In this document: in pieces, positions 22,121-62,673 of the stretch
Numbering within the stretch: position 1 is the first letter of the stretch
How the letters are laid out: every line of letters begins with the position of its first letter
Assembly: GCA_003243975.1 (NCBI GenBank)
Contig: QHBJ01000013.1
Location: 1 to 64,000, forward strand
DNA: 64,000 bases
Reading direction: 5' to 3'
Source: Candidatus Meridianibacter frigidus
Lineage (GTDB): Bacteria; Vulcanimicrobiota; Vulcanimicrobiia; Vulcanimicrobiales; Vulcanimicrobiaceae
Notes under the pieces: model-generated
Seen by the model: the letters and a program-made list of their open reading frames with translations, nothing else
What the model was told of the DNA's origin: nothing
Databases searched by the model: none
Made by a program: the position numbers and the translations under genes

Positions 22121-23019
22121 GCGTGCGCGTCGGCGCGGAGTTGTTACGCTTGGCCGACCGCACGGGCGCGCCCTCGATTGTGGTCGTGGGCACAGGAAAG
22201 AATGTCGGGAAAACGGTCGTCGTGCGCGCGCTATGTGAAGAACTGACGAAAGCGGGATGTTCTTTTGGGCTCGCATCGATCGGTCGCGATGGTGAAGCAT
22301 TCGATGTCGCGGGCGCCCAGCCGAAGCCGCGTCTTTTTCTGCGCCCCGGCACGATTATTGCGACGGCGCGAACGCTCTTGCCGGCGGCTCCCGCGGTCGA
22401 AGTCGTAGCTTCGTCGCTACTGCAGAGCGCGGCAGGCCCGATCGTTTTTGCCCGAATCCGGACTCCCGGATTCTTCGAGATAGCCGGGCCGCCGTCGGCG
22501 GCCGCAATGCGCTCGTGCATTGCGGAACTCTTCGCGCTCGGTGCGCAGCGCGTCGTCATCGACGGGGCTGTGGACCGCATCGCTATGCTGGCCGGTGGGG
22601 GGGACGCGGTCATTGTGGCTACGGGCGCGGCAAACGCGGCCGGCATCGAGGAAGCGGTGGATGAAGTGCGCTCTCTCGTACGCGTGCTGCAGATTCCCAA
22701 AGCCGACCCGCAGCGCGAAAGCGTGTTCGTTCCCGGCGCGTTGACGGCCACTGCCGCGAACCACTTCGTCTCCGCGCGCGAATCGCGACAAATCGTGGTG
22801 CGCGATCCCACCCAGATCGCCTTGCGTGCGAATACGCTCGCATGTGCGATCGAGCATCTGGATTTGCGGTGCGAGCGTCCGCTGAACGTTGTTGCGGTGA
22901 CCGTTGCTTCGATCGGCGGTCAGAGATATTTCGAGCCGCAGCAATTTGCTCGGAAAGTGGCGGGCGCCGTGCGACTCCCGGTCTTCGATGCATATGCCGC
23001 TTCGATGACGGCGGCATGA
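22111..23019 (+). CDS. kamB: Aminomutase reactivase subunit, KamB-like P-loop protein
   Basis: About 302 aa. The P-loop VVGTGKNVGKTVVVRAL lies near residues 25-40. The motif RVVIDGAVDRIAMLAGG matches the nucleotide-binding subunit that accompanies lysine 5,6-aminomutase and ornithine 4,5-aminomutase. With the MutS-like KamC it is thought to release inactive cobalamin and reactivate the mutase. ATG 22111 overlaps mntP; GTG 22123 is an alternative. Its stop overlaps kamC (ATGA). Identification rests on motif plus the kamC-kce neighbourhood. No aminomutase gene is in the window. Confidence 0.75.
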   Translation: MGISVRVGAELLRLADRTGAPSIVVVGTGKNVGKTVVVRALCEELTKAGCSFGLASIGRDGEAFDVAGAQPKPRLFLRPGTIIATARTLLPAAPAVEVVASSLLQSAAGPIVFARIRTPGFFEIAGPPSAAAMRSCIAELFALGAQRVVIDGAVDRIAMLAGGGDAVIVATGAANAAGIEEAVDEVRSLVRVLQIPKADPQRESVFVPGALTATAANHFVSARESRQIVVRDPTQIALRANTLACAIEHLDLRCERPLNVVAVTVASIGGQRYFEPQQFARKVAGAVRLPVFDAYAASMTAA

Positions 23020-24638
23020 GAGTGCGCGAGGTGGCGGATGCAGGCACGGCGCGTCAATTGCGCTGGGAGTGGCTACTGGCTGAAATCGAGCCTGTAAGCG
23101 ATTACGGCAGGCAGTATCTTACCGCTCGCAAGCCGTTTGCTCCCGGCCAGGGAGAGGCGGCGCATAAGAGCGCCCGGCGGTTCTGCAAGGTTGCGAGCCT
23201 ACTCGGCGAAGAGCGCATCGACGCGATGCGCGCAATGCTGCGCAATCTTCCGGATGTGACCCCCGTCCTGGCACGTGCGGCTATGCGTGACGGGCTCTCC
23301 GACTTGCAGCTCTTCGAACTGCTGCGTTTCTGCGATGCGGTATTGGATTTGGCAAAGTCAAGCGACTCTGCGTTCCAGATTCCGACGGAGGCCGCGGGCT
23401 GCATTGCCGAGCTTCTGCGGTCCGGTCACACTGAAAAGCATTCGTTCTTCCTCGATGACGCATTTTCGGACCGGCTTGTGCACGCGCGAGCCGAACTTCG
23501 CGCTGCTCAAGAGACCTTCGATGTAGCGCATGGGCGGCTCGCCGGTCGACTTGCGCAAGCGCTGGGGCGCGCGGAAATCACCGGACCGGAATTCATCGTG
23601 ATGCGCACCGAAGTGAGCGGTGCACTGCCGCCCGGCTTGCGAGCCGTGCGCGAGGCGCCAACTTACTTTCTATGCGAACTGGAGCTGGACGAGCCGGCGC
23701 TGCGCGCGCTCGCGCGGCGCGACGAAGCTTTTGCAGCCCTCGCGCAAGCCGAGCATGAAGTGCGCGCTTCCCTGTCGAGCCGCATCGCGGAGTACGTCGC
23801 GAAACTGGAGCACTCGATACAACTCGTTGGCGAGATCGACGGGACCCTGGCGGTGGCGCGTTTTACGCTGCGGCACGAATGCGTCGTGCCGGAGTATGTG
23901 AGTGGCGCAGAGCTTGCCGCAACAGGTGCCCGTTTTGTGCCGCTACAGGTCGAACTGCAACAACATAACCGGACGTATACAGCCATCGATTTCCAACTCT
24001 CCGGTACCACGGTGATCACGGGGCCGAATATGGGTGGCAAGAGCGCGGCCTTACAAACCGCCGGCTTCATCGCACTCTGTGCGGCGATGGGCATCCCGGT
24101 TCCCGCGACCTCGGCCCGTGTCTGCCTGTTCACGCAAATCGTTTGGCTCGGCAGCGGCGCGCCCGACGATTCCGGCGGCCTGCTTTCATCGTATGCGAGC
24201 GAGGTCGTGCGGCTGCAGCAGTCGCTGGGCGAACTTGCATTGCCGGCGCTGTTCTTGATCGACGAGCCGGCACGCACCACTACTCCGATTGAGGGAAGTG
24301 CGTTACTTGTCGCTCTCATCGACCATCTCAATGCGCGCGGAGTATGTGCGTTTGTTGCAACGCATCTCTCCGGCGTGACTCAAAAAGTTCTCGCCAAACA
24401 TTATGCCGTGCGTGGATTGCGCCGCCACGCGCAGGTTAGCGCCGCGAGCGATTTGGAGGCCGCGCTGAGGGCTGTGGGTGACGCGATGGATTACACGATC
24501 GAAGAAGTTGGCACGGACGCTCCGCCGCGCTCCGATGCGCTCTATCTGGCGCAAGCCCTGGGGCTCGAAAGCACCTTGATCGAGCGCGCTCGGTCGATTC
24601 TTGGCGGCGAGGTCGCTCCGCATGCAAAGCGAAGTTGA
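23016..24638 (+). CDS. kamC: Aminomutase reactivase ATPase, KamC-like (MutS family)
   Basis: A 540-aa MutS-type ATPase without the DNA-mismatch-binding domain. The core/lever region covers about residues 60-310. The ATPase has Walker A GPNMGGKSAALQTAGF (about 336-350) and a Walker B region LFLIDEPARTTTPIEGSALL in place of the DEIGRGT of real MutS. This pattern fits the KamC/OraE-associated reactivases of lysine and ornithine fermentation rather than DNA repair. Start ATG 23016 overlaps the kamB stop. The end overlaps kce by 17 bp, so the three are one operon. Confidence 0.8.
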   Translation: MRVREVADAGTARQLRWEWLLAEIEPVSDYGRQYLTARKPFAPGQGEAAHKSARRFCKVASLLGEERIDAMRAMLRNLPDVTPVLARAAMRDGLSDLQLFELLRFCDAVLDLAKSSDSAFQIPTEAAGCIAELLRSGHTEKHSFFLDDAFSDRLVHARAELRAAQETFDVAHGRLAGRLAQALGRAEITGPEFIVMRTEVSGALPPGLRAVREAPTYFLCELELDEPALRALARRDEAFAALAQAEHEVRASLSSRIAEYVAKLEHSIQLVGEIDGTLAVARFTLRHECVVPEYVSGAELAATGARFVPLQVELQQHNRTYTAIDFQLSGTTVITGPNMGGKSAALQTAGFIALCAAMGIPVPATSARVCLFTQIVWLGSGAPDDSGGLLSSYASEVVRLQQSLGELALPALFLIDEPARTTTPIEGSALLVALIDHLNARGVCAFVATHLSGVTQKVLAKHYAVRGLRRHAQVSAASDLEAALRAVGDAMDYTIEEVGTDAPPRSDALYLAQALGLESTLIERARSILGGEVAPHAKRS

Positions 24639-25485
24639 AACACAGATGGATCCGCTCATCATCACCGTCGCGCCGGTCGGCGCCGAGCTTACGCCGGAAC
24701 AGACGCCGCACTTGGCGGTGACGCCCGCGCAGCTGGGCGAGGTGGCCCGCAAGGTGCGGGATGCGGGGGCCAGCATCGTTCACGTGCACTGCCGAAACGA
24801 CGACGGCAGCAATACGCACGACGTGCAACGTTTTGCCCAGGCTCAAGAGCAAATTCGCGCGAGCACGGATCTTATCGTTCAGTTTTCAACCGGCGGCGCC
24901 ATCGGCATGACGCCAGAAGAGCGCGCAGCGCCGCTGGCGCTGCGTCCCGAAATGGCGACGCTGACGTGTGGCAGCGTAAACTTTGGCGACGACATTTTTG
25001 AGAACAGTTTCCCGGTCATGCGTGGTATTTTAGCCGCGATTACCAAGTACGGTGTAACACCGGAGCTGGAGATTTTCGACAAGGGGCATCTTGCCAACGC
25101 CCGCCGCTTGGAGCGCGAAGGATTGCTCCATTTTCCCCAACACGTCGACTTTGTGCTGGGTGTGCCGGGCGGCTTGGATGCAACCGTCGCCAACCTCTGT
25201 GATCTGGTAGCCGGGCTTCCAGCGAAGTGCACGTGGTCGGTCGCCGGGATCGGACGTGCGCAACTGCCGTTGGCGATGGCCGCGATCGCCATGGGTGGTC
25301 ACGTACGCGTAGGCTTGGAAGATAATATCTACTATAGTAAGGGACGGCTCGCGACCAACGAGGAGCTGGTGGCGCGCGTCGTGCGTATCGCCGGTGAGGC
25401 AGGGAGACCTGTCGCTTCGGCCGAGCAGGCCCGGGAGATTTTGCATATTGCGCCGGCGCGGCGTGCCCCGGCCGCAGTAGGATAA
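24622..25485 (+). CDS. kce: 3-keto-5-aminohexanoate cleavage enzyme (BKACE family)
   Basis: A beta-keto acid cleavage enzyme (DUF849), 287 aa. Kce converts 3-keto-5-aminohexanoate plus acetyl-CoA into acetoacetate and 3-aminobutyryl-CoA in lysine fermentation. The Zn ligands HxH are in IVHVHCR (His54, His56) and the catalytic/metal Glu233 in VGLEDNIYY. BKACE enzymes have varied substrates, so the assignment to Kce leans on the overlap with kamC. Start ATG 24622 overlaps kamC; ATG 24646 is possible. kdd, kal and kamDE are not seen. Confidence 0.82.
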   Translation: MQSEVETQMDPLIITVAPVGAELTPEQTPHLAVTPAQLGEVARKVRDAGASIVHVHCRNDDGSNTHDVQRFAQAQEQIRASTDLIVQFSTGGAIGMTPEERAAPLALRPEMATLTCGSVNFGDDIFENSFPVMRGILAAITKYGVTPELEIFDKGHLANARRLEREGLLHFPQHVDFVLGVPGGLDATVANLCDLVAGLPAKCTWSVAGIGRAQLPLAMAAIAMGGHVRVGLEDNIYYSKGRLATNEELVARVVRIAGEAGRPVASAEQAREILHIAPARRAPAAVG

Positions 25486-25536
25486 GGGCGAGTGCGACCG
25501 TAACTAGCGCGTCTTCTCGGTAGGAGGGCTTAAAGA

Positions 25537-26508
25537 CTGTTCACCTACGTGATGCGGCGAACGTTACAGGCGATTCCGCTGCTCATCTTGATCTCGATGA
25601 TTCTCTTCATCATCTTGAACAATGCCCCGGGTGGACCGCTGGCGCCGTACCTTTCGAATCCCCACATCACGCCGGCCGATATCGAGCGCCTCAAGCATAA
25701 CTTTGGGTTGGATAAGCCCATTTACTACCGGTACTTCATTTGGCTCGGCCAAGTAGTTCGCGGCGATTTCGGTTACTCGACTTCAAACTCGGAATCGGTC
25801 ATGGACGCAATTCTCGGACGTTTGCCGGCGACGCTTGAGTTGCAAATCTCCGCGTTCTTGCTGGCGCTGATCTTAGGGCTCTCGGCGGGAATCTTTGCGG
25901 CGGTTCGTCCGTATTCGGTGGCCGATTATACGATTACCACCTTTGCTTTCTTTGGGCAATCCATGCCGGTGTTCTGGTTTGCGCTGATGATGCAACTGGC
26001 GTTTGCAGTCAATGGGATTCACGGATTCGGGTACGAGATTCGGCTGCCGTCGGCCGGCATTGCGACCTTGGACACTTTTGATTTGGGCGATCGATTGCAG
26101 CATTTGATTCTGCCCACTATCGTGCTGGCGCTGCTGCAGCTGGCCCTCTACAGCCGTTTCATGCGCAGTTCCATGTTGGAAGTAATACGAACCGACTACA
26201 TGCGCACCGCATCGGCCAAGGGTCTGGACGGGCGGACCGTGCTCTTTAAGCACGGTTTGAAGAACGCGCTCATCCCGATCGTTACTGTTACCGCGCTAGC
26301 GTTGCCGGGGTTGCTGGGCGGAGCGGTTGTTACCGAAACCATCTTTGCGTGGCCGGGCGCGGGACGTATGTTCATCAATGCGCTCGGGCAAGAAGACATC
26401 GCATTGCTGATGGGCTACCTCTGCATTCTGGCGGTGGCCGTCGTCTTTTCAAACCTTTTGGCGGACGTCGTGTACGCATGGTTGGACCCGCGCGTGAAGT
26501 ACGATTAG
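25537..26508 (+). CDS. oppB: Peptide/nickel ABC permease, OppB/DppB type
   Basis: An inner-membrane permease with about six helices. The EAA-loop region (DYMRTASAKGLDGRTVLFKHGLKNALIPI) and the end WLDPRVKYD are diagnostic for the OppB/DppB family. An excellent ribosome site, AGGAGGG at 25522-25528, lies 8 nt before CTG 25537, which would give the usual MFTYVMRRTLQ start. The first conventional start (GTG 25549) would be 20 nt away and lose that N-terminus. I therefore prefer CTG. No binding protein or ATPase gene is adjacent. Confidence 0.88.
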   Translation: MFTYVMRRTLQAIPLLILISMILFIILNNAPGGPLAPYLSNPHITPADIERLKHNFGLDKPIYYRYFIWLGQVVRGDFGYSTSNSESVMDAILGRLPATLELQISAFLLALILGLSAGIFAAVRPYSVADYTITTFAFFGQSMPVFWFALMMQLAFAVNGIHGFGYEIRLPSAGIATLDTFDLGDRLQHLILPTIVLALLQLALYSRFMRSSMLEVIRTDYMRTASAKGLDGRTVLFKHGLKNALIPIVTVTALALPGLLGGAVVTETIFAWPGAGRMFINALGQEDIALLMGYLCILAVAVVFSNLLADVVYAWLDPRVKYD

Positions 26509-26520
26509 GAAGTAAGGATT

Positions 26521-27459
26521 ATGGCAGCCAGCGTTCCCATCAATCAGCCGCTCGTGGTGGACGAAGAGCGTTTCGAAGTCAGCAAGAACACCGTCTGGCG
26601 GCGTTTTCGCAAGCACAAGCTGGCGCTGTTGGGCATCTTCGTGCTGGGCTTTATGATTTTGGTGTCCATCTTTGCCAAACAGCTTGCCCCGTACGACCCC
26701 AACTGGATCGACAAAGCGTGGCAGGGAAGCCCGCTGCCTCCCACCTTCGTAAACGCGCATCTGTCGGCACATCACGCCTTGGGAACCGATGAGATCGGCC
26801 GCGACCTGCTCTCGCGCCTAATCTTCGGCGCGCGCATATCGCTAACCGTGGGCGTTGCTGCAACGCTGATGGAAGTGTTGATCGGGACATTCCTGGGCGC
26901 GATCTCCGGCTACTACGGCGGCTGGATCGACTACATCATCATGCGCGTTACCGATGTATTCTTGTCGATCCCAATTTTACCGCTGCTGCTCGTGCTGACG
27001 GCCATCGTCGCGGCCAAGTCTAGCAGGGCATCGTTGAGTTTCGGAATCATCGTCATTATTATCGGGGGTTTGGCATGGCCGCCGGTGGCACGCCTCGTGC
27101 GCGCGACGTTCCTCTCGCTGCGCGAACGCGAATATACCGAAGCAGCGCGTGCAGTAGGCAACAACGACATGCGCATTATCTTCCGGCATCTCTTGCCCAA
27201 CTCGATGGCGCCCATCATCGTGCAAGCGACGTTGGACGTGGCGGGTGTGATCATCTTGGAATCGACGCTCTCATTCTTGGGCTTCGGTATTCAACCGCCG
27301 ACGGCGTCGTGGGGCAACATGCTCTCCAATGCGATCTCCACGCTGCAAACCGCGTGGTGGGCCGCCGTCTTCCCCGGCTTATGCATTTTGGTCACCGTGC
27401 TGGCCATCAATTACATGGGCGATGGCTTGCGCGACGCGCTCGACCCAAATACCCGTTAG
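26521..27459 (+). CDS. oppC: Peptide/nickel ABC permease, OppC/DppC type
   Basis: A 312-aa partner permease. The N-terminal cytoplasmic tail leads into the first helix (LALLGIFVLGFMILVSIFA). HHALGTDEIGRDLLSRLIFGARISL is the OppC signature, and YTEAARAVGNNDMRIIFRHLLPNSMAPI is the EAA loop that contacts the ATPase. It starts 12 bp after oppB, with AGGAAGTAAGG just before the ATG. Together they form the transmembrane part of an oligopeptide-type importer whose other subunits are outside the window. Confidence 0.92.
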   Translation: MAASVPINQPLVVDEERFEVSKNTVWRRFRKHKLALLGIFVLGFMILVSIFAKQLAPYDPNWIDKAWQGSPLPPTFVNAHLSAHHALGTDEIGRDLLSRLIFGARISLTVGVAATLMEVLIGTFLGAISGYYGGWIDYIIMRVTDVFLSIPILPLLLVLTAIVAAKSSRASLSFGIIVIIIGGLAWPPVARLVRATFLSLREREYTEAARAVGNNDMRIIFRHLLPNSMAPIIVQATLDVAGVIILESTLSFLGFGIQPPTASWGNMLSNAISTLQTAWWAAVFPGLCILVTVLAINYMGDGLRDALDPNTR

Positions 27460-27723: not shown

Positions 27724-27978
27724 ATGGAACGCACGATCACGCAACGCGAACTCCGCAACGATAATGCGAAGATCATCCGGGCCCTTGAGGGCGGCGCATC
27801 ATTTATCGTGACTCGCAACGGGGTGCCGGTGGGTCGCCTGACCCCGGTTGCGCGACGTACTTTCGTGCCCGCGACTGAATTGATGGCATCCGCAGCCCAC
27901 CTGCCGGCTCTGAACTTCAACAAGTTCCGGATTGACATCGACGCACATTTCGATCAAGATCCGGCGCCTCGTGTCTAA
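27724..27978 (+). CDS. Phd/YefM- or VapB-like antitoxin
   Basis: An 84-aa antitoxin. The N-terminus MERTITQRELRNDNAKIIRALEGGASFIVTRNGVPVGRL (in part) has the Phd/YefM DNA-binding pattern: a Q/RELR helix followed by a beta hairpin with TRNGxPVG. The C-terminal half (MASAAHLPALNFNKFRIDID) should wrap the toxin. ATG 27724 follows a perfect palindrome. The stop overlaps the PIN toxin start by 8 bp. It lies 51 bp from tRNA-Leu, a common landing site for such modules. Confidence 0.85.
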   Translation: MERTITQRELRNDNAKIIRALEGGASFIVTRNGVPVGRLTPVARRTFVPATELMASAAHLPALNFNKFRIDIDAHFDQDPAPRV

Positions 27979-28375
27979 ACATGAGCGAGGGGTGCTCGAC
28001 ACGTCCCTCATCATCGGGATAACGTCGGTTAAGGCGACGCAGTTGCCGACCCAAACGTCCATTGCAACAATTACTCTAGCCGAGTTAGCCGCAGGCACTT
28101 TAGCTGCCAGCGATCCAAAGGCGCGAGGTGAACGTTTGGAGCGGTTGCAATGGGCGCAAGCCACCTTTGAGGCTATTCCATTTGATACCGCTGCGGCACA
28201 CGCATATGCTCGCATCTATTCGGCTGCCATTACTTCCGGACGAAAACCGCGGGGTGGACGGGCGCTCGACCTATTGATCGCAGCGACCGCCATTTCTCGT
28301 AGCTTGCCGCTGTACACGCTGAATCCGGTTGATTTCAAGGGTGTCGCAAAGCTTATGGAGATCGTTGCGTTATAG
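27971..28375 (+). CDS. vapC: PIN-domain ribonuclease toxin (VapC-like)
   Basis: A 134-aa PIN-domain protein. The acidic active site is complete: Asp in GVLDTSLII, Glu in TLAELAAG, Asp in RALDLLIAATA and Asp in LNPVDFKGV. VapC toxins cut tRNA or rRNA; the target here is unknown. GTG 27971 overlaps the antitoxin stop, and a further GTG lies at 27992 after GAGCGAGG. Paired with the antitoxin upstream it forms a standard type II module. Confidence 0.87.
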   Translation: MSKHERGVLDTSLIIGITSVKATQLPTQTSIATITLAELAAGTLAASDPKARGERLERLQWAQATFEAIPFDTAAAHAYARIYSAAITSGRKPRGGRALDLLIAATAISRSLPLYTLNPVDFKGVAKLMEIVAL

Positions 28376-28842: not shown

Positions 28843-31800
28843 GTGTGGCTGACCCGATTTGCACTAACCCGGCCGGTGATTACCGTCATGGTATTCGCGG
28901 CGCTGGCCATTTTCGGCTTGATCGCTTACACCCAGATCGGGCGGGCCCAGAATCCCCCGGGAACCGAGTTTCCGCTGGTCTTCATCTCGGCCGACTATCC
29001 CGGTGCCTCTCCCCAAGAGATGGAGAAACTGATCGTCAAGCCGCTGGAAGATCAGCTCAATGACCTTCAGAACGTAGAGCAGGTAACGGCCACCGCCCAA
29101 GAGGGCTCAGCCCAGGTCAACGTCGAGTTCAAGATTGATACCAACATCGATCTCGCAGCCATCGACGTGCAGCGCCGCGTCGATACTGCGCGCATCTTTA
29201 TGCCCAGCGACCTCGATCCGCCGTTCGTGGGCAAGGCGGGCTCATCTGAGCCGCTGATGACGCTGGCCGTCTCTTCCAATTCGCTCTCGCCGCCGGCGCT
29301 CGCCGATGTCGTCAACAACCGGCTCTCCCCACTCCTGAAACAGATTCCGAATATTCAAACCGTCACCGTGCGCGGCGTGCAGACGCGCGAGTTCCACGTC
29401 GAGCCCGATCCCGGAAAGCTGCTCGGAACCAACGCGACGCTCAACGACATTTTCTCGGCCGTTCAGGTAAATAATGCCAATGTTCCGGGCGGCCGCATCG
29501 ACTCGCCGACCAAGGAAACGACCGTTTCGATTCACGCCGACGTGAACAACGCCGGTGATTTGGCGGCGCTCCCGTTGACCATCCCGGGCGGCAGCACGAG
29601 GTTGCTGCGTGTGGGCGACGTCGCTAACGCCAGCGACAGCTACGCCGACCAGCGCTACATCTCCCGATACAATGGGCAGACGCGCGTGCGCATTCAGCTG
29701 GATAAAGTTTTGGGCGTGGACGAAGTCAGCGAAACCAAAGTTGTGCGCGACCAACTGAAAGGAATCGAAGCGCAGTTTCCGCAGCTGACGTTCCACGAGA
29801 TAAGCGCGCCGGCCGACTACACCAGAAAAGAATTAAACGGCGTGTGGCAATCGCTCTTAGAAGGCATCGTACTCACCGCCATTGTGATGATGCTGTTCTT
29901 GCACGCTTGGCGCAATGCCGCCGTGGTTATGATAGCAATTCCGACGTCGATTCTCTCCACCTTCGTCGTGATGAAGTGGATGGGTTTCACGTTCGACTTC
30001 ATGTCGCTCATGGGCTTGTCACTCATCATCGGAATCTTGGTGGACGATTCCATTGTCGTCTTGGAAAACATCACGCGCCATCGAGATTTGGGTGAGGAAC
30101 CGATGAATGCCGCCATTAACGGCCGCACCGAAATTGGCTCGGCAGCGGTGGCCATCACGTTGGTTGACGTGATCGTCTTCTCGCCGATTGCGTTCTTGCC
30201 CGGGATCGTGGGCAAGTATCTCAAAGAGTTTGGTTTGGTCGTCGTGGTCGCGACGCTCTTCTCGCTGCTGGTTTCATTCACGCTTACACCGCTCTTGGCG
30301 GGCCGCTGGAGCGTGAAGAAGCGTTCGCAAGCGCGACCGAAGTGGCTCGAGTGGCTGAAGAAACCGCTCGTCAGTATCGTGGTGGCTGCCGTAGCGATCG
30401 CGCTGTACCTTATCCCGATGCCGGTGGATTATGGCCGCGTGGCCGGCGTCGTTTTCCTGGCGCTCGTTGTCCTCAACCTCTTCGTTCAGCACTACGATAC
30501 GGTGCTAAACTGGTACCGAACCCGCGTTTTGAATTTTTCCCTTTCGCATGGCTACTTTGTTATCTTCCTGTGCGCAATGCTGCTGCTTAATGCGCTCATG
30601 CTGATGGCTGGGGGAATCGTGGCGGCGATGTTCGACCTGATTGTAGCCGTAGTTTTGGCAGTCGGATTGCTGGTCGGTTTTGTCTATCGCTCTTCGTATG
30701 CGTCGCAGAAGCTCGAACCGCTGAACTACACGGAAGCGGGCCAGGGCATTATGCGCACGCTCCTCCGCCATGCAATCGCGGCATTCTGGATTCGGATCGA
30801 CGGCCAAGCTCGCTTTGCCGCGATTCGCAACGGTTACCGGTTCTTGGTCCGCAGCGCCGCCGGCATGACCGCCAAGCGAGGCATCACGCTCGCCACTTTC
30901 GGCGTGCCATTGGTGCTGGCGTCGTTCATGTGGCTCTTCCCGGCGATTTCGACTGACTTCGTCCCGAACGGGCAAACCGGCACGATCCTCATGTCGCTGA
31001 CCTATCCCGTGGGCACGCCGATTGCGGTAACTTCCGGAGGGGTCGACGCGATCTCCAAAGCGATCTTGAAGATCGATGGTATCGACACGGTCAGCTCCAC
31101 GGTCGGAGCCAAACAGACGGGCTTTGGTTCGACTAGCGGTGGAAACTACGCCACGATCAATGCCGAGACCAAGAAAGACCGCCGCAAAGAGACCAATGCG
31201 GTCATGCTCAAGATTCGTAAACTGTCGTACCTGGTTCCCGGCGGCGATTTCCAAGTTGCTGGCGAGAGCGGCGGCGGATCGGGCGCATCCATTTTCTACG
31301 CGCTCACCGGACCGGATGCGGTTCTCGATCAAGCCGCGAAGAAGGTCGTAACATACCTGCGCAACACGCCGGGCTCGGTCAACGTGCAATCTGGCGCCGA
31401 GGGCGGCGCACCGCGGCTGAACGTGCAGATTAATGCAAATCAAGCGGCGGTTCTGGGCCTTTCGCCCGGCGCCGCGGCGAATGCCGCACGTCTTGCGATT
31501 GCCGGCGGAGTTGCAACCAAAGTCCGCACCGCCGACGGCTTGGTGGACGTCCGCGTGCAATTTCCCGTCGCGCGGCGCAACGACATAACCAATCTGCAGA
31601 ACGTGCGGGTGCGCGCGGCCGACGGAACTTTGGTTGCGCTGGGAAGCATCGCCACGTTCACCATGACCAACGCGCCGACGAAGATCGATCGGCTCGACCG
31701 CGCGCGTGTTATCAACGTTACCGGCGGCGCCTTGCCAGGCTACTCGCTTGGCTCCATTACCGGGCCGCTTGAGAAGAAGCTGCGCGAGCCGGGATTCCTA

Positions 31801-32445
31801 CCGGCGGGTGTTCATCTGAAGCCGCAGGGCGATACGCAGCTCATGGTCGAGACATTCACCAATATGGGCATTGCGTTGCTGACTTCCTTCATGCTGGTTT
31901 ACATGCTGATGGTGATTCTCTACGGTTCGTTTTTGGAGCCGCTCATCGTGATGTTCTCGGTGCCGATGGCCATCGTCGGGGCGCTGATGGGACTCTCGAT
32001 CATGCACTTTTTCGACAGAGAGGGAACGCAGTCGCTTAATATCATCTCGATGATCGGCGTCATCATGCTCTTTGGATTGGTTGCCAAGAACGGCATCTTG
32101 CTGGTCGATTACTCCAACACGCTGCACAACAAGCGCGGTCTGCGCGTGCGCGATGCCGTGCAGCAAGCATCCGGCACGCGTTTTCGCCCGATTTTGATGA
32201 CGACGTTCGCGATGGTCTTCGGCATGCTGCCGCTAGCGCTGGGCTTTGCCGAAGGCTCGGAATGGCGCCAGGCCATCGGTACGGTGATTATCGGCGGCCT
32301 GCTCAGTTCGCTGATTTTGACGCTATTCTTAGTACCGATGATCTACAACACGTGGATGGGATACTTCGAGCGCGTGGCCGACGCTCGCGCGGTCCAAAGC
32401 GAGTTAGCGCCGGTACAAACCGGTGAACCGGTGCTCGTCACCTAG
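28843..32445 (+). CDS. RND-family efflux transporter with extra membrane insert
   Basis: A 1200-aa HAE1/AcrB-type pump starting at GTG 28843 after CAGGGAG. TM1 (RPVITVMVFAALAIFGLIAY), porter domains, and the proton-relay residues Asp-Asp in GILVDDSIVVLEN and Lys in GLVAKNGILLVDY are present, so it should be energised by protons. AcrB relatives are about 1050 aa. The extra length is an insert at about residues 500-625, between TM6 and TM7, with about four added hydrophobic segments. No adaptor (HlyD/AcrA type), outer-membrane factor or regulator gene is adjacent. Tandem terminators follow. Confidence 0.93.
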   Translation: MWLTRFALTRPVITVMVFAALAIFGLIAYTQIGRAQNPPGTEFPLVFISADYPGASPQEMEKLIVKPLEDQLNDLQNVEQVTATAQEGSAQVNVEFKIDTNIDLAAIDVQRRVDTARIFMPSDLDPPFVGKAGSSEPLMTLAVSSNSLSPPALADVVNNRLSPLLKQIPNIQTVTVRGVQTREFHVEPDPGKLLGTNATLNDIFSAVQVNNANVPGGRIDSPTKETTVSIHADVNNAGDLAALPLTIPGGSTRLLRVGDVANASDSYADQRYISRYNGQTRVRIQLDKVLGVDEVSETKVVRDQLKGIEAQFPQLTFHEISAPADYTRKELNGVWQSLLEGIVLTAIVMMLFLHAWRNAAVVMIAIPTSILSTFVVMKWMGFTFDFMSLMGLSLIIGILVDDSIVVLENITRHRDLGEEPMNAAINGRTEIGSAAVAITLVDVIVFSPIAFLPGIVGKYLKEFGLVVVVATLFSLLVSFTLTPLLAGRWSVKKRSQARPKWLEWLKKPLVSIVVAAVAIALYLIPMPVDYGRVAGVVFLALVVLNLFVQHYDTVLNWYRTRVLNFSLSHGYFVIFLCAMLLLNALMLMAGGIVAAMFDLIVAVVLAVGLLVGFVYRSSYASQKLEPLNYTEAGQGIMRTLLRHAIAAFWIRIDGQARFAAIRNGYRFLVRSAAGMTAKRGITLATFGVPLVLASFMWLFPAISTDFVPNGQTGTILMSLTYPVGTPIAVTSGGVDAISKAILKIDGIDTVSSTVGAKQTGFGSTSGGNYATINAETKKDRRKETNAVMLKIRKLSYLVPGGDFQVAGESGGGSGASIFYALTGPDAVLDQAAKKVVTYLRNTPGSVNVQSGAEGGAPRLNVQINANQAAVLGLSPGAAANAARLAIAGGVATKVRTADGLVDVRVQFPVARRNDITNLQNVRVRAADGTLVALGSIATFTMTNAPTKIDRLDRARVINVTGGALPGYSLGSITGPLEKKLREPGFLPAGVHLKPQGDTQLMVETFTNMGIALLTSFMLVYMLMVILYGSFLEPLIVMFSVPMAIVGALMGLSIMHFFDREGTQSLNIISMIGVIMLFGLVAKNGILLVDYSNTLHNKRGLRVRDAVQQASGTRFRPILMTTFAMVFGMLPLALGFAEGSEWRQAIGTVIIGGLLSSLILTLFLVPMIYNTWMGYFERVADARAVQSELAPVQTGEPVLVT

Positions 32446-32559: not shown

Positions 32560-33327
32560 ATGCTATTATTCAGAAAACTCACCTACGCGCTGCTCGCGGT
32601 CGTGGTGACGGGGGCGTGCGCCTTGCCGAAGTTCGCGGACGCGGCTGCCGTAACCATTGTCGTAAATGGACAGACGGTGAACTTCGATCAGCCGCCGGAA
32701 GAGCGAGCGGGGCGCGTATTCGTCCCCTTGCGCGGAGTCTTCGAGCGATTGGGCGCCAGTGTCGTCTACGCGAACGGTCAAATCAACGCGACCGGAAGCG
32801 GACATTCGGTTTCGCTTCACATCGGATCCACCGCGGCAACCGTAAATGGCCAGCCGGTGACCGTGGATGTCGCTCCCTTCTTGGTGGGTGCGCGCACGCT
32901 GGTTCCTTTGAGGTTCGTTGCTCAGGCGCTGGGGGCGACGGTGAATTACAACGACAGCACGCGCACGGTGGCAATTAACGGCGGCAGCGCGCCGGTTACG
33001 GTGACACCGATGCCCGCGCCCGGCAATAACTTCATCCAGGTTACTGCGCCGCGACCGGGGGTAAGAGTCGGTTCCAGCTTTCTGCTAACTGGCAGAACGC
33101 GCGCCAACTCTTCGGTAACGGTCGCCGCAACGGGGCAGGCCTTGATCGGCGGGGTGCTTCCAATTAGCGGCGGAACGTACCAAAACTCAACCACGGCCGA
33201 CAATACCGGCTACTTCTCGCTAACGATCAGCATCCGTCCAATCCCGGGCGGAAGCGCTCACGTTACGATTCGTTCCGTCGCGCCCGGCGGCGCCACGGCG
33301 ACGCGGACGTTTATCTTCCCTAGCTAA
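32560..33327 (+). CDS. Exported copper-amine-oxidase-N (stalk) domain protein, short form
   Basis: A 255-aa secreted protein. The ATG follows GGAGG. The signal peptide ends near ADAA. Residues about 30-135 are a copper amine oxidase N-terminal (stalk) domain: VNGQTVNFDQPPEERAGRVF, VPLRGVFERLGASV and VPLRFVAQALGATVNY. Despite its name this domain is a common extracellular module in Gram-positive and related bacteria and is not catalytic. The C-terminal part (about 155-255) is Ig-like (FIQVTAPRPGVRVGSSFLL). The next gene is a longer paralogue. Confidence 0.87.
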   Translation: MLLFRKLTYALLAVVVTGACALPKFADAAAVTIVVNGQTVNFDQPPEERAGRVFVPLRGVFERLGASVVYANGQINATGSGHSVSLHIGSTAATVNGQPVTVDVAPFLVGARTLVPLRFVAQALGATVNYNDSTRTVAINGGSAPVTVTPMPAPGNNFIQVTAPRPGVRVGSSFLLTGRTRANSSVTVAATGQALIGGVLPISGGTYQNSTTADNTGYFSLTISIRPIPGGSAHVTIRSVAPGGATATRTFIFPS

Positions 33328-33358
33328 CCTATCGCTCATAGTCTGGAGACTGTTGCAC

Positions 33359-34456
33359 ATGAACGCTATTATGAAGAAGGCCTTGCCTGGTGTAACCGCG
33401 GCGCTGCTCGTGATGATCGGGCTTCCGGTGGCGGCGCTCGCAGCGCCCGTTACCATTCAAGTCAACGGCAGTACCGTTTCATTTGATCAACCGCCGATCG
33501 AACGGGGCGGGCGGGTCTACGTTCCCCTGCGTGGAGTATTCGAGCGTCTCGGCGCCAGTGTTGTGTACGCGAATCGCGCTATCAACGCCACCGGAAACGG
33601 CCATAACATCAATCTGACGATTGGATCCTCAACGGCGACGGTTGACGGTAGCAGCGTCGGCCTGGATTCGCCACCCTTCCTTGTGGGCTCGCGCACGCTC
33701 GTGCCGCTGCGATTTGTCGCGCAAGCGCTGGGTGCGACCGTGAACTACAATTCCAGCAATCGGGTGGTGGCAATCAACTCCGGTGGTGGCGGTGCTAATA
33801 CGGGTGGCGGCAATACGGGCAGTAATCCCCCGCCGGCATCTGTTACACTGTTAAGTCTAAATCCGCCAAACGGGGGTGTCGTTTCCGCAAGCAGCCCGAC
33901 GCTCACGGGTACGTTCAGCGCTCCGGTTGATCCCAACAGCGTGCACGTTTCGCTCGATGGACGCGACATCACGACCTTCGGGACATATGTCAATGCAAAT
34001 CAATTCCAAATCACCACCCCCAATCTTCCGGCCTCGGCGCACACCGTAACCATCACGGGCAATGCGGCCGCGGGAGGCGCATTCTCGCAATCGTTTTCGT
34101 TCACTTCGGGTGCAGATACGCGTAGGCCGTTTGTGGCAAACGTTCGGGTAAACGGCATCGCCATCGTCAACGGCATGCAGGTTCCGAATGCGCCCTATGC
34201 GATCACGGGAAGCACGACGCCGGGCGCGACCGTCCAAATTATCACATCGTACCAAACCTCGATCTTCAACGGGCTAATTCCGCTGGGAGGAAACACGAAC
34301 TCGCAGACCGTGCAAGCCGATAGTGCCGGACGATTTGCCGCCACGATCGACCCATCGATCATCGGTAGCCCGGCACAGTACGTCATCGGTATTCGCTCCA
34401 TTAACCGGGTAACACAGGCCACGAGCACGCCCGTACAATACACGGTGCACACCTAA
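33359..34456 (+). CDS. Exported copper-amine-oxidase-N (stalk) domain protein, long form
   Basis: A 365-aa paralogue of the preceding protein. After the signal peptide (ending ALAAP), the stalk domain repeats the same landmarks: VNGSTVSFDQPPIERGGRVY, VPLRGVFERLGASVVYAN and VPLRFVAQALGATVNYN. A Gly/Asn-rich linker (GGGGANTGGGNTGSNPP) leads into two Ig-like domains, the first with SLNPPNGGVVSASSPTLTG. ATG 33359 follows GGAG at 33345-33348. The tandem pair probably arose by duplication and ends at a strong terminator. Confidence 0.87.
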   Translation: MNAIMKKALPGVTAALLVMIGLPVAALAAPVTIQVNGSTVSFDQPPIERGGRVYVPLRGVFERLGASVVYANRAINATGNGHNINLTIGSSTATVDGSSVGLDSPPFLVGSRTLVPLRFVAQALGATVNYNSSNRVVAINSGGGGANTGGGNTGSNPPPASVTLLSLNPPNGGVVSASSPTLTGTFSAPVDPNSVHVSLDGRDITTFGTYVNANQFQITTPNLPASAHTVTITGNAAAGGAFSQSFSFTSGADTRRPFVANVRVNGIAIVNGMQVPNAPYAITGSTTPGATVQIITSYQTSIFNGLIPLGGNTNSQTVQADSAGRFAATIDPSIIGSPAQYVIGIRSINRVTQATSTPVQYTVHT

Positions 34457-34524: not shown

Positions 34525-35262
34525 TTGATTACCGGGGCATCGTCGGGCTTGTGCAGTGGAGTTGCACTTGCGCTTGCGCGCTTCGGTTACGACTTGGTTC
34601 TCACTTTCCGTGCTACCGACCCGCAACCGGTAGTGCAAAGGGCGCGAGAAGCCGGCGCGACCGTACACACCGTGCGCATCGACTTTGACGATTCTCCCGA
34701 AATCATCGCGCGAAGTTTGGCCGCGCTAGTCGCAGAGTACAGCATCGACGTTTTGGTGCATGGTGTGGGCCCGATGACGACCAAACGCTTTTCGCGCTCA
34801 GCCTTCGCCGATTATGAAGCCATGCTCAACGGGAACCTGCGCAGCGCCGTCCTGTGCGCCCAGGCGCTTCTTCCCGGGATGCGCGAGCGAAAATATGGGC
34901 GCTTGATCTTTTTTGCCATGAACCATTCCGATGTGACCCAGCCGGTGCGCGGCTTGAGTCTGCATGCGGCCGCCAAATCAGGACTCGTCGCATTCGCAAA
35001 GACACTCGCGCTTGAAGAAGGCGCGAATGGAATCACCGTCAACGTCGTGGCACCGGGCGACATACGCGACAAGCAGGCCATGCGTGCGCAGGCACGTCTG
35101 CGAAAGGCCCAAAATCCGGTAGGACGGCCCGGCTCGTGGGAAGACGTTGCAGATGCGGTCCGTTTCTTGATTGCAGCGGACGCCGATTTTTTCAACGGCG
35201 TCGTTCTGCACGTTAACGGGGGGTTGGCCGAGCCCTACGAGCGAAACGCGGAGCGCCCATGA
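34525..35262 (+). CDS. Short-chain dehydrogenase/reductase-like protein with altered catalytic Tyr
   Basis: A 245-aa SDR fold. The cofactor motif TGASSGLCSG replaces the usual TGxxxGIG. The core is FabG/FabL-like, with the Asp-containing RIDFDDSPE and NVVAPGDI. At the active site, where YxxxK is expected, the sequence is LHAAAKSG: His147 replaces the proton-donating Tyr while Lys151 is kept. The Ser is in NHSD. Only TTG 34525 is available as a start and it leaves a very short N-terminus (MITGASSG); the frame is open further upstream (TAL before ITG), so the start is uncertain. It overlaps the next gene (ATGA). Confidence 0.78.
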   Translation: MITGASSGLCSGVALALARFGYDLVLTFRATDPQPVVQRAREAGATVHTVRIDFDDSPEIIARSLAALVAEYSIDVLVHGVGPMTTKRFSRSAFADYEAMLNGNLRSAVLCAQALLPGMRERKYGRLIFFAMNHSDVTQPVRGLSLHAAAKSGLVAFAKTLALEEGANGITVNVVAPGDIRDKQAMRAQARLRKAQNPVGRPGSWEDVADAVRFLIAADADFFNGVVLHVNGGLAEPYERNAERP

Positions 35263-37814
35263 GTTTTCGCGATGAAAAACCCAAACACCGGCGTTTTGAT
35301 CTACCGGGTGCCTTCCCGCGGTACGGCCCCGACAAACTTGTTGACGTGGTGCACATCGATCTGTACCTGGAACCGGACTTGCCGGCCCGTACGCTTTCGG
35401 GAATATGCACGACTACGGTCCGCGGATTGGACGAACCGGTTTCGCGCCTGGAACTCGATGCCGTAGACCTGGAAGTTTCCTCGGTTGCGCGTCAGAGTGC
35501 GGCGCTGCCCTTCGAGTGTCATGACCAGAAGTTGGGGATTACGTTCGACCCGCCCATCGCTGCGGGCGAAACGGTGGACTTCGCGATTACGTATCGTGCC
35601 GTTAATCCGCGCCACGGATTGTTTTTCGTCGCGCCAAGCCCGGAGTACCCAAATCTTGTCCCGCACGTCTGGACGCAGAGTCAGGACGAGAACGCCCGCT
35701 ACTGGTTTCCATGCTTTGACTATCCGCACGAAAAGCAAACCACCTCGGCTACGATCGTCGTACCTCAGGGCATGTTCGCTTTGTCGAACGGAGCACTAAC
35801 GGCGCGTGACGACCGCGACGGCAAGACGGTCTTTCGTTACGAGCAAAACGTTCCACACTCGACCTATCTGGTGAGCATGGTGGCGGGACCCTTCGTCGAA
35901 ACGCAGCAACGCAGCGGCCCGTGCCCAGTCTTCTACTACGTCCTCCCTGGCCGCCAAGCCGACGGCGAGCGATCCTTCGGTAAAACGCCGCAGATGATCG
36001 ATGTATTTGAAGAGAAAATCGCGACCAAATATCCGTACGCGCGCTACAGCCAGATTGCGGTGAGCGACTTCATCTTCGGTGGAATGGAGAATACGGCTGC
36101 GACAACGCAGACCGATCGTACTCTGCACGACGAGCGAGCCCACGCGGACTTTTCCAGCGACCCGTTGGTGGCCCACGAGCTGGCGCACCAGTGGTTTGGG
36201 GACCTGCTTACGTGCCGCGATTGGGCGCACGCTTGGCTCAACGAAGGGTTCGCGACGTTTTTCGAGGCGATTTTTCGCGAAGCCAATCTGGGATACGACG
36301 AGTATCTTTTTGATGTGTTTGAATTCATGGCGCGCTACGTAGATGAGGACCAATCCCGGTACCGCCGCCCCATCGTCTACAACACCTTTCGCGACCCGAT
36401 CGAACTCTTCGACCGGCATCTCTACGAAAAGGGCGGCGCGGTTTTGCATATGCTGCGTGGCGAACTGGGAGAGCAACGCTTTTGGCGGTCGATCGTGCAC
36501 TATGTGAAGCAGAATGCGGGTCGGAGCGTCGAGACCATCGACTTCATTCGTGCCATCGAAGAGTCAACCGGCCGAAATATGCGCGAGTTCTTCGACCAGT
36601 GGGTGTTTCGCGGCGGCCATCCGCAGATCGAAGTGAGCGCGCGCTACGACAAGAAACGCGGAGCGCTCACGGTCACAATCGAGCAGAAGCAGCATATCGA
36701 CGAGGAGAATCCGCCACACCGGTTCGATGTCGAACTGGGTTTATGCGAGCAGGCCGAAGACGGTGCGCGCCAGGATTTCGGCTCCGGTGCACTGCCGGAC
36801 GAGCAGCGCATCCGCATTAGCATCCAACGCGCGCGAGAGATCGTCTACGTTCCGCTGGACGCGGAGCCGAAGCTTGTGCGCTTCGACCCGGGAGCGTTCT
36901 TGCTCGCCGATATCACGTATAAACTCGGGGACACTCTCGCGCGTGCCGCGTTAGCTGCCGACCCATCGCCAGTCGCCCGCATCCGGGCAGCGCGGGAGTT
37001 GGCGGGTGAAGGCGGCAGGGCGGCGCGTGAGGCGTTGGCGCAGTGCTTCGAGCGCGAGGCGTTCTGGGGAGTCCTTGCAAAGGCGGCCGAAGCCCTCGGG
37101 CACACCCGAGCTCCATGGGCGCGCGAAATGTTGAGCGCGCATGCGGGGCACAAACATCCCAAAGTGCGGCGCGCGATTGCGGCGGCGCTCGGCAATTTTC
37201 AATCGGAAGAAGCTGCAGCGGTGCTCATTCCGCTTGCGCGCGAGGATCACTCATACTTTGTGCAGGCGAGCGCCTTGCACGCATTAGGAAAGACGCGCGA
37301 TCCGCGTGCAATCGACGTATTGAGTCAGGCCATCGAGACGCACAGTTGGAACGGCATCATCGAGTCGGGCGCTGCGCGCGGGTTCGGAGAGCTGGGGGAT
37401 CCACGCGCGCTGCAGACGCTGCTGCGAGCGTCCGAAACCGGAAAAGAAGAAGGGCTCCGGCGCGCCGCGCTGGATGCCATGGCGCGCATGGGCGAATTGG
37501 TGGACGAACGGCGAACCGCCGCGGTTGAGGCCATCATGCGAACCCTTGAGGACCGCATGTTGCTGGTGCAACTGGCGGCCTTGGCGGCTGCGGAGCACTT
37601 GTCCGATGCGCGCTTCCTCCCCACGTTGGACCGCCTGTCGCACAGTGCGTTCGATGGGCGCGTGCGCCGCGACGCGACCGAAGCGGCCATCCGGATTCGC
37701 GAAAGCCAGCATGTACCCGCACAAGTGGCCGGTCTGCGCAGTGACGTGGACACGCTGCGTGAAGAGTATCGTAAACTTCAAGCCAAACTCGATGAGCTCA
37801 CGCCGCACACTTAA
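35259..37814 (+). CDS. M1-family aminopeptidase with HEAT-repeat tail
   Basis: An 851-aa zinc aminopeptidase. The substrate-anchoring motif is FGGMENTAATTQTD (GAMEN-like). The zinc site HELAHQWFG starts at about residue 306, with the third ligand in NEGFATFFE. About residues 560-820 form an array of HEAT-like repeats (RAAREALAQCFEREAFWGVL and others). A short coiled coil ends the protein. Most M1 enzymes have an ERAP1-C helical domain; here the repeats take its place. No signal peptide is seen, so it is likely cytoplasmic. It overlaps its neighbours on both sides. Confidence 0.93.
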   Translation: MSFRDEKPKHRRFDLPGAFPRYGPDKLVDVVHIDLYLEPDLPARTLSGICTTTVRGLDEPVSRLELDAVDLEVSSVARQSAALPFECHDQKLGITFDPPIAAGETVDFAITYRAVNPRHGLFFVAPSPEYPNLVPHVWTQSQDENARYWFPCFDYPHEKQTTSATIVVPQGMFALSNGALTARDDRDGKTVFRYEQNVPHSTYLVSMVAGPFVETQQRSGPCPVFYYVLPGRQADGERSFGKTPQMIDVFEEKIATKYPYARYSQIAVSDFIFGGMENTAATTQTDRTLHDERAHADFSSDPLVAHELAHQWFGDLLTCRDWAHAWLNEGFATFFEAIFREANLGYDEYLFDVFEFMARYVDEDQSRYRRPIVYNTFRDPIELFDRHLYEKGGAVLHMLRGELGEQRFWRSIVHYVKQNAGRSVETIDFIRAIEESTGRNMREFFDQWVFRGGHPQIEVSARYDKKRGALTVTIEQKQHIDEENPPHRFDVELGLCEQAEDGARQDFGSGALPDEQRIRISIQRAREIVYVPLDAEPKLVRFDPGAFLLADITYKLGDTLARAALAADPSPVARIRAARELAGEGGRAAREALAQCFEREAFWGVLAKAAEALGHTRAPWAREMLSAHAGHKHPKVRRAIAAALGNFQSEEAAAVLIPLAREDHSYFVQASALHALGKTRDPRAIDVLSQAIETHSWNGIIESGAARGFGELGDPRALQTLLRASETGKEEGLRRAALDAMARMGELVDERRTAAVEAIMRTLEDRMLLVQLAALAAAEHLSDARFLPTLDRLSHSAFDGRVRRDATEAAIRIRESQHVPAQVAGLRSDVDTLREEYRKLQAKLDELTPHT

Positions 37815-61515: not shown

Positions 61516-62673
61516 TTATCTTTGCGAGGGCTGAAGAGTGATGGACATCCGCGAGAAGTCGTACGTTACTGCGTAGTGCTTGAGAAATTCGTGCGAGACT
61601 ACGCCGGCTGCGTGAAATGGGAACGTCGTCAGCGGCGAGCCCGCAGGCGTAAAGACTCCGGGAACGTTTTTTTGGCAGGCGGTGGACAGGCACACCCGGC
61701 CGGCGCGCACGGGGAAGAACCGCACCATGCCCCCGCCGCCGAGGCCCTCCGACGAGTGGGTTCGATCAACGGTAATGCCAGCGGCCGAGAGGATATTTGC
61801 CTCGGGCGAGAAGCCCACGCCGGCTCCGCCTGAATCCACCAAGAACAATTGATCGCTCAGCGAGTTCACGCTGCCGCGTGTGAAGATAAAGTGATCGCCC
61901 ACTAACCAGAATGGCATCCGCACCGCCCCTGCATCGACCGGCGGCTCACTGCCCTGTTGGCGCAGAATGAGTTGCTTACCGGGGTAATCCACGGTCGCCA
62001 GAAAGCGCGAAAGAAAAACGGTTCCCACGATGGCATCAGGATGGCGCGATCCGAAAAAAGGAACGCCTCGCGTTGGCAGGACCGCGGCGGAAACCGGTCC
62101 TACGTGTGCTCCGCCGAGATCGGCAGACTGGAACTCGGCGAGTCGTATCGCGGCCTTTTGGCCGCCCGCGAAGGTTCCCGTGCCACCTTCACGAGTTTGC
62201 ACGCCCAATTCTTGCGCTAGCCCCGGATCGATGACGATATCCGGTGCGCCCGTGTCCAGGAAGGCCAAGACGTCGCGCCCGTTGAGCTTCATCGCAAACA
62301 AGGGAAGCGGATCGACCGCCAAGAGCGGAACGCGCGTCTCTCCACCCACGAAGCTTACCGCGCGTGCGCTCTCTGCGATCTTGCGCCGCTGGTCGATCGC
62401 ATGCAATAGGTTCGCGGCCAGCTGATTTGTGTTGTCGGCCATCACGGCGAGAAGCGCCCGCCGGCGCGCTTCATCAAGCCGGTTTTCATAAAACAGCACG
62501 CGCGCGAGCGCAGCATTCACGCGGGGATCGTTTGAATTCTCCATGGCAAGCTCGGTGTAAGCCGTCTTGGCGGCTGTAAAGTCGCCGGCTGCAAAGAGCG
62601 CATCCGCGTTCGGCGCCCCCAGGGCCGCGCCGAATCCGAGCGCGAAGGCCAGCAGTGCCGCTACAATGCGCAC
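61516..62673 (-). CDS. Exported TPR/two-motif aspartic protease-like protein
   Basis: A 385-aa protein with a signal peptide (MRIVAALLAFALGFGAALGA). Residues about 24-100 are TPR-like helices. Two retropepsin-like motifs follow: FLDTGAPDIVID (Asp140) and FLVDSGGAGVGF (Asp280). In viral retropepsins two identical chains each supply one Asp; here one chain has both, in a pepsin-like layout. GTG 62673 directly follows the stop of the E2 gene. The function is likely periplasmic proteolysis, but activity is inferred only from the motifs. Confidence 0.85.
   Translation of the reverse strand: MRIVAALLAFALGFGAALGAPNADALFAAGDFTAAKTAYTELAMENSNDPRVNAALARVLFYENRLDEARRRALLAVMADNTNQLAANLLHAIDQRRKIAESARAVSFVGGETRVPLLAVDPLPLFAMKLNGRDVLAFLDTGAPDIVIDPGLAQELGVQTREGGTGTFAGGQKAAIRLAEFQSADLGGAHVGPVSAAVLPTRGVPFFGSRHPDAIVGTVFLSRFLATVDYPGKQLILRQQGSEPPVDAGAVRMPFWLVGDHFIFTRGSVNSLSDQLFLVDSGGAGVGFSPEANILSAAGITVDRTHSSEGLGGGGMVRFFPVRAGRVCLSTACQKNVPGVFTPAGSPLTTFPFHAAGVVSHEFLKHYAVTYDFSRMSITLQPSQR

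Follow-up and report, generated by a model that had tools for sequence, protein, structure and literature searches.

An AcrB-type RND permease of Candidatus Meridianibacter frigidus with a predicted sixteen-helix membrane domain and two additions flanking its Ialpha helix

The stretch of DNA analysed here, hereafter the window, comprises positions 1 to 64,000 (64,000 nucleotides) of contig QHBJ01000013.1 of Candidatus Meridianibacter frigidus, and on its forward strand, at 28843-32445, lies a gene for an RND permease that starts with GTG and whose frame runs uninterrupted over 1200 amino acids. The product matches the AcrB-type profile PF00873 at 704.6 bits, over the curated cut-off of 28, and does so across both halves of the pump, in two stretches that adjoin in the profile (505/507) but lie 150 residues apart in the protein (30358-30807). 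NCBIfam NF033617 (RND_permease_2) is the top-scoring model of its library for this protein, though at 658.8 bits it falls under its own curated cut-off of 1250. An AlphaFold2 model of the protein matches solved RND pumps over its whole length, with AcrD as the best row (Z 45.2, rmsd 3.8, 971 residues; ties exist); the best 60 of 83 solved relatives are 1031-1069 residues long. The model displays the two six-helix repeats that define the superfamily, in which TM1 and TM7 are each followed by a large periplasmic loop, and appears to add four helices to the usual twelve, for a predicted total of 16.

The proton relay consists of an aspartate pair in TM4 (D401-D402, 30043-30048), a lysine in TM10 (K1082, 32086-32088), and an arginine and a threonine in TM11 (R1113 and T1120, 32179-32202), all on the forward strand. 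The relay residues were assigned to their AcrB counterparts (D407/D408 for the aspartates) by motif. Across 45 rows these positions are nearly invariant: D401, D402 and K1082 are kept in 45 of 45, R1113 in 44 of 45, and T1120 in 44 of 44 with one gap. The preliminary description of this DNA had named the gene an RND pump with the standard relay residues intact, and both points are borne out; judged from its sequence, the protein is an AcrB-type RND permease with core and relay preserved.

The pump sits in a forward-strand neighbourhood whose members, identified by profile matches, recur in the loci of relatives: OppB/OppC-type ABC permeases upstream (25549-27459) and, downstream, two proteins with a copper-amine-oxidase N-terminal-like domain (32560-34456) followed by an SDR dehydrogenase and an M1 peptidase with HEAT repeats (34525-37814), the last of these being a fusion of the two domains in one protein (35259-37814). 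Adjoining OppB/OppC, a KamC-like reactivase and a 3-keto-5-aminohexanoate cleavage-like enzyme (22842-27459 with the permeases) are conserved in that upstream position in several relatives. A PIN/VapC-like gene (27932-28375) lies between OppC and the RND gene and has no counterpart in 26 relative loci, some of which end short of the place. Near the far end of the window, at 61516-62673, there is a predicted protein combining TPR repeats with a retropepsin-like aspartyl protease domain.

Genes for the periplasmic adaptor and the outer-membrane channel, which a tripartite HAE1 system encodes with its pump, were sought widely. A genome-wide search for the channel gave no match on the pump's contig, and the sole adaptor match there (63682-63858) is an E2 lipoyl domain from a 2-oxoacid dehydrogenase. 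When the four adaptors and four channels of the genome served as tblastn queries at E <= 1e-4, nothing was found in the window, in 26 named loci of relatives or in 20 further stretches; all four control loci were recovered, and very distant adaptors could escape such a search. No adaptor or channel appeared either when 20 selected proteins, most of them neighbours, were searched for domains. The earlier observation that no such gene stands beside the pump is thus upheld, and four loci elsewhere in the genome do hold adaptor-channel pairs: C9, C10 (with MacB-type permeases), C1 and C19 (with an RND pump).

The C9 locus (L150:3772-9944) carries adaptor and channel genes and then two OppA-type genes, with no RND pump. 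Because OppBC adjoins our pump and C9 has OppA-type genes, the C9 pair was considered as the missing partner. All of 41 genomes contain a match to its adaptor at E <= 1e-30. Of 16 sampled relatives, 13 combine an adaptor and a channel with OppA-type genes and show no RND pump in the fetched stretch, L180 has adaptor and channel only, and the other two (same order) place the adaptor beside an ortholog of the RND_C34 pump. Going by these two relatives, RND_C34 suits the C9 pair no less well than our pump does, and the pair is a candidate partner at most. Loss of partner genes together with the gain of helices was considered and rejected, the surroundings of insertless orthologs being free of adaptor or channel matches too (20 of 20 stretches).

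The unusual part of the protein lies between TM6 and the second porter domain. In this region (residues 487-700) there are 214 residues where insertless orthologs have 63, or about 150 extra. Proceeding from TM6, the first addition, which we call A, is a membrane hairpin of H1 (508-526) and H2 (529-549) at 30352-30489, recognised from hydropathy and the AlphaFold2 model. It is followed by a helix at residues 551-568 (30493-30546) homologous to Ialpha, the ordinary TM6-TM7 connecting helix, where a profile of Ialpha from insertless orthologs finds its best match in the protein (z 7.0). H3 (570-590, 30550-30612), with the conserved residues C577 and N583, then occupies the place of the ordinary TM7 according to profiles and conservation. 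The second addition, B (30613-30942), consists of H4 (592-617), a variable cytoplasmic loop (618-678) and TM7' (679-699), a second TM7-like helix that the porter domain directly follows; it was delimited from the AlphaFold2 model, profiles and loop charges. The extra residues, read in this way, are two additions flanking Ialpha and a TM7-like helix and not one block, and the new helices would be H1, H2, H4 and one of H3 and TM7'.

Several observations bear on whether these segments are membrane helices. The best 19-residue Kyte-Doolittle windows in the insert begin at 510, 530, 572 and 592, and a fifth hydrophobic stretch lies just ahead of the porter domain. AlphaFold2 places helices at 508-523, 529-549, 551-568, 570-587, 591-620 and 679-697; confidence is moderate both for the full protein modelled with 22 relatives (mean pLDDT 69.7, pTM 0.57) and for the segment modelled alone with 16 relatives (77.5 and 0.59), where helices also appear. 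Across 45 rows, lysine and arginine amount to 20.0, 15.1 and 21.6 per 100 residues in the three loops assigned to the cytoplasm and to 3.4 and 3.1 in the two assigned to the periplasm. Loop charges and the model therefore agree with what is probably a set of 16 membrane helices. The preliminary description had proposed about 125 extra residues at roughly 500-625 with four hydrophobic stretches near 30340-30718, all of them membrane segments added between TM6 and TM7 in an even number that keeps the topology. The stretches are where it put them, the structure model and charge bias favour membrane helices at 500-625, and the reasoning about even numbers is right; the insert is indeed long and adds helices, but it measures about 150 residues, and by homology the third of the four stretches takes the place of TM7, which would mean that not all four are new and that not all lie between TM6 and TM7.

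How widely is this arrangement distributed? Of 149 genomes searched in the phylum (Candidatus Eremiobacterota, for which the NCBI name is Vulcanimicrobiota), 59 match an alignment of the insert over its whole length, all of them in the window's own family, while shorter matches among the 149 genomes correspond to the Ialpha-TM7 part of other pumps or to Ialpha-TM7-H4. In the contigs of named genomes a scan gave 27 loci, 26 of them close relatives in bins labelled Candidatus Eremiobacterota or bacterial (some cut by contig ends) and one, L063, a distant Pseudomonadota pump that lacks the insert. The insert is absent from the three other PF00873 proteins of the same genome, all of which have ordinary linkers of 54-68 residues (54 and 60 in the two that passed the linker filter used below; the third, on C20, fell outside that filter), and from the PF00873 Pfam profile. 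It is likewise absent from 21 plasmid RND genes with both halves, drawn from 25 rows spread down the ranking of a plasmid search that extended to 5000 records, which at 2.9-3.1 kb are too short to hold it; the insert alone gave no match to plasmids at E <= 1, and its alignment none to viral contigs. In the genome's other pumps, the plasmid rows, the solved structures listed and the Pfam profile, then, the insert is missing; had it been common to all RND pumps, that would have told against the preliminary description.

Among relatives, 126 rows passed the linker filter, and dropping identical linkers left 90 distinct ones, which run from 54 to 240 residues and in 84 of 90 cases contain 1, 3 or 5 helices, TM7 included; the even counts of the remaining 6 at the threshold used are probably threshold misses. 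Seven insertless rows of the family have linkers of exactly 63 residues. The gene neighbourhood was compared over 20 stretches, and OppB, OppC, pump, copper-amine-oxidase-like protein, SDR dehydrogenase, M1 peptidase and an S13 peptidase-like ORF are common to insertless (L080-L083), B-only (L084, L085, L087) and A+B forms, not every gene being found in each stretch and L081 and L082 having no OppBC within reach. Pumps sharing this neighbourhood are taken as orthologs, which by their sequences would differ in having no added helices, two (B only) or four.

Profiles offer a view of where the helices came from. Set against insertless orthologs, H3 and the stretch ahead of it already resemble the ordinary TM7 and Ialpha, a likeness that the profiles put to the test. 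Position-specific profiles of Ialpha and TM7 were built from the 7 insertless rows and scored against shuffled columns, a null that controls composition, though not every helix-like pattern. In 44 of 45 A+B rows the Ialpha profile matches best directly before H3, at linker position 60-69 (mean z over all 45, 7.9); in all 15 B rows its best match keeps the ordinary place, position 20. For the first half of TM7 the best place is the H3 region in 38 of the 45 A+B rows, where z is low (mean 1.45), and in 13 of the 15 B rows. In the window protein this half-profile instead picks H4, at z 0.0. The second half gives no clear placement (mean z 0.84), and a profile of the stretch after TM7 matches after TM7' in 45 of 45. 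In the reverse direction, profiles of H3 and TM7' made from A+B rows both locate the ordinary TM7, each in one register, in every one of the 7 insertless family rows (z 2.2-6.4 and 2.8-5.8), the bit scores being negative in 4 of the 7 for H3 and 2 of the 7 for TM7' notwithstanding these z values; the other 13 insertless rows reach z >= 2 in only 3 cases (H3) and 1 (TM7'). A profile of H4 scores z >= 2 in 11 of 15 B rows but in not one of 20 insertless rows. No counterpart of H1 or H2 was found among 39 rows scanned, H1 staying at z <= 1.9 and H2 exceeding 2 in three rows (best 3.5).

That H3 and TM7' both resemble the ordinary TM7, weakly to moderately, suggests a duplication of TM7. The simplest reading this suggests is that TM7 was duplicated with a new H4 between the copies, giving B, and that a separate hairpin, A, was placed before Ialpha. 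A fuller version, in which the pump keeps the old TM7 after Ialpha and carries its porter domain on the copy while insertless, two-helix and four-helix orthologs record the steps, is a tentative one that we regard as somewhat less than an even bet, its chances being lowered by the negative bit scores and by the failure of the half-helix profile in the window protein. A different origin, the fusion of one foreign four-helix membrane domain between TM6 and TM7, is what four contiguous hydrophobic stretches might bring to mind, but residues 551-568 match the ordinary Ialpha and the next helix takes the place of TM7, forms with B alone exist, only RND-type Pfam families matched the protein, and the model of the insert by itself has no significant Foldseek match (best E 1.2), so we consider such a fusion very unlikely. 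VIA-align of the insert model gave a best Z of 5.4 (rmsd 10.5, 119 residues).

The added region is also under selection. From 20 disjoint pairs, in which high-dS pairs are unreliable, dN/dS is 0.02-0.62 for residues 504-620, 0.009-0.27 for the core membrane helices and 0.03-0.40 for the periplasmic part, and in the 9 of 20 pairs with periplasmic values under 0.12 the insert has 0.02-0.19. Of the 20 pairs, 18 have a higher value in the insert than in the core membrane helices, and 17 a higher one than in the periplasmic part. The insert is, on these sequence comparisons, under purifying selection that is less strict than in the core membrane helices. Mean pairwise identity over 31 rows is 0.30 for H1, 0.51 for H2, 0.51 for Ialpha, 0.58 for H3, 0.30 for H4 and 0.42 for TM7', against 0.60 for TM1 and 0.73-0.92 for the other core helices. 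In the same rows A540, N545, Y558, L563, L567, C577, L580 and N583 are kept in 94-100%, while H1, H4 and the 618-678 loop vary freely. An artefact of assembly, frameshift or gene calling that joined two genes, for which we found no support, is at odds with the unbroken frame, the recurrence of the insert in 59 of 149 genomes and the selection acting on it, and its probability is negligible.

A core tree was computed by a quick method from the 84 rows that were long enough, the window protein included and the linker excluded. Their states are A+B in 45, insertless in 20, B with two helices in 10, B with four in 5, A in 3 and insertless-long in 1. All 45 A+B rows group together with one B row (L130) at support 100, with B-only and insertless rows around them; an AU test did not reject the A+B rows as one clade without L130 (p 0.068). 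After four long-branched rows were removed, the 80-row tree requires at least 4 changes in the presence of B and 3 in that of A. H4 can be recognised across groups, which makes an early single gain of B followed by several losses plausible, though B may also have been gained separately. Since the tree permits losses, the helices would be dispensable in at least some forms of the pump. In another family, three rows that form one group with support 100 have a hairpin where A would be; the H1/H2 profiles miss this hairpin, and so an independent gain is probable.

Two further arrangements were seen among the relatives. L084, L136, L137, L138 and L139 lack a hairpin before Ialpha; their linkers are longer, with further hydrophobic stretches after the TM7 position, which amounts to another way of arriving at four extra helices. 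In a sister family, L086, L096 and L144 have tandem RND gene pairs with a hairpin before Ialpha in the second copy only.

The repeated changes on the tree invite the idea that the additions are a neutral accretion, the connection between the halves tolerating extra hairpins that come and go without changing pumping. Besides the counts of changes for B and A, the seven insertless rows with identically long linkers, the free variation of H1, H4 and the loop, and an insert dN/dS above that of the core in most pairs would all fit such tolerance, but dN/dS of the insert is low in close pairs, eight of its residues are nearly invariant over 31 rows, and A is kept in 45 of 46 rows of its clade; we judge neutral accretion unlikely, at perhaps one chance in a few.

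Comparison with known systems helps to place the pump. HAE1-type RND permeases (AcrB, AcrD, AdeB, MdtB; PF00873) share its core fold, its proton relay and both periplasmic loops, whereas this pump has by prediction about 16 helices instead of 12, a hairpin before Ialpha, two more helices separating the TM7-like H3 from the porter domain, and no partner genes alongside. AcrZ is a separate one-helix protein that sits on the AcrB membrane domain and alters substrate range; the likeness to it is in the idea of an extra membrane helix, and here the helices belong to the pump itself. The RND members with 13 or 14 helices are mainly eukaryotic sterol-sensing proteins with their additions elsewhere. 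RND pumps usually have 12 helices and members with 13 or 14 exist in the superfamily, as stated in PMC8277102, and they share with this pump the presence of extra helices on a 12-helix core. The literature search, covering its sources in part, found no published description of an RND form with these additions. In AcrB, according to PMC8277102, Ialpha joins the two halves, TM1 and TM7 are peripheral, TM7 is part of the second rigid body, and a substrate channel begins at the TM7/8 groove.

We favour, with moderate confidence, an HAE1-like RND exporter with a membrane domain built up in steps and an accessory module of added helices at its rim. Such a pump would work by the usual proton-coupled cycle. 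Its TM7 would be duplicated, with the porter domain hanging on the second, TM7-like helix, and the added helices would stand at the rim of the membrane domain beside TM7, at the place where, in AcrB, lipophilic substrates gain access to the TM7/8 groove. Acting as an accessory module within the pump itself, they would shape access of substrate or lipid, or the rocking of the two six-helix halves; that a peripheral module beside TM7 tunes entry or the coupling of the halves is our best guess, drawn entirely from its position. The adaptor and outer-membrane channel, if used, would come from genes elsewhere in the genome.

What the pump exports may also be considered from its surroundings. A pump serving the peptide and amino-acid neighbourhood (OppBC, peptidases and lysine-fermentation-like enzymes), and exporting for example peptides or lipid-like products in place of drugs, would agree with the conservation of that neighbourhood in A+B, B and insertless forms and with the adjacency of an adaptor-channel pair lacking an RND pump to OppA-type genes in 13 of 16 sampled relatives; a conserved neighbourhood is no proof of function, however, and in 2 of the 16 the C9-type adaptor accompanies the RND_C34 ortholog, so that we hold this to be a rather improbable reading.

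Returning to the accessory module, orthologs with 12, 14 and 16 predicted helices indicate that the single covalent bridge between the halves of an RND pump can be rebuilt, and the rebuilding perhaps extends even to the helix that carries the second porter domain. If the duplication is true, the covalent link between membrane half and porter would have been re-routed. These natural variants would make the requirements for Ialpha and TM7 in coupling and substrate entry testable. Overall, the pump family would record the growth of a membrane domain from 12 to probably 16 helices in even steps, perhaps partly by the copying of one helix, in a group of poorly known environmental bacteria.
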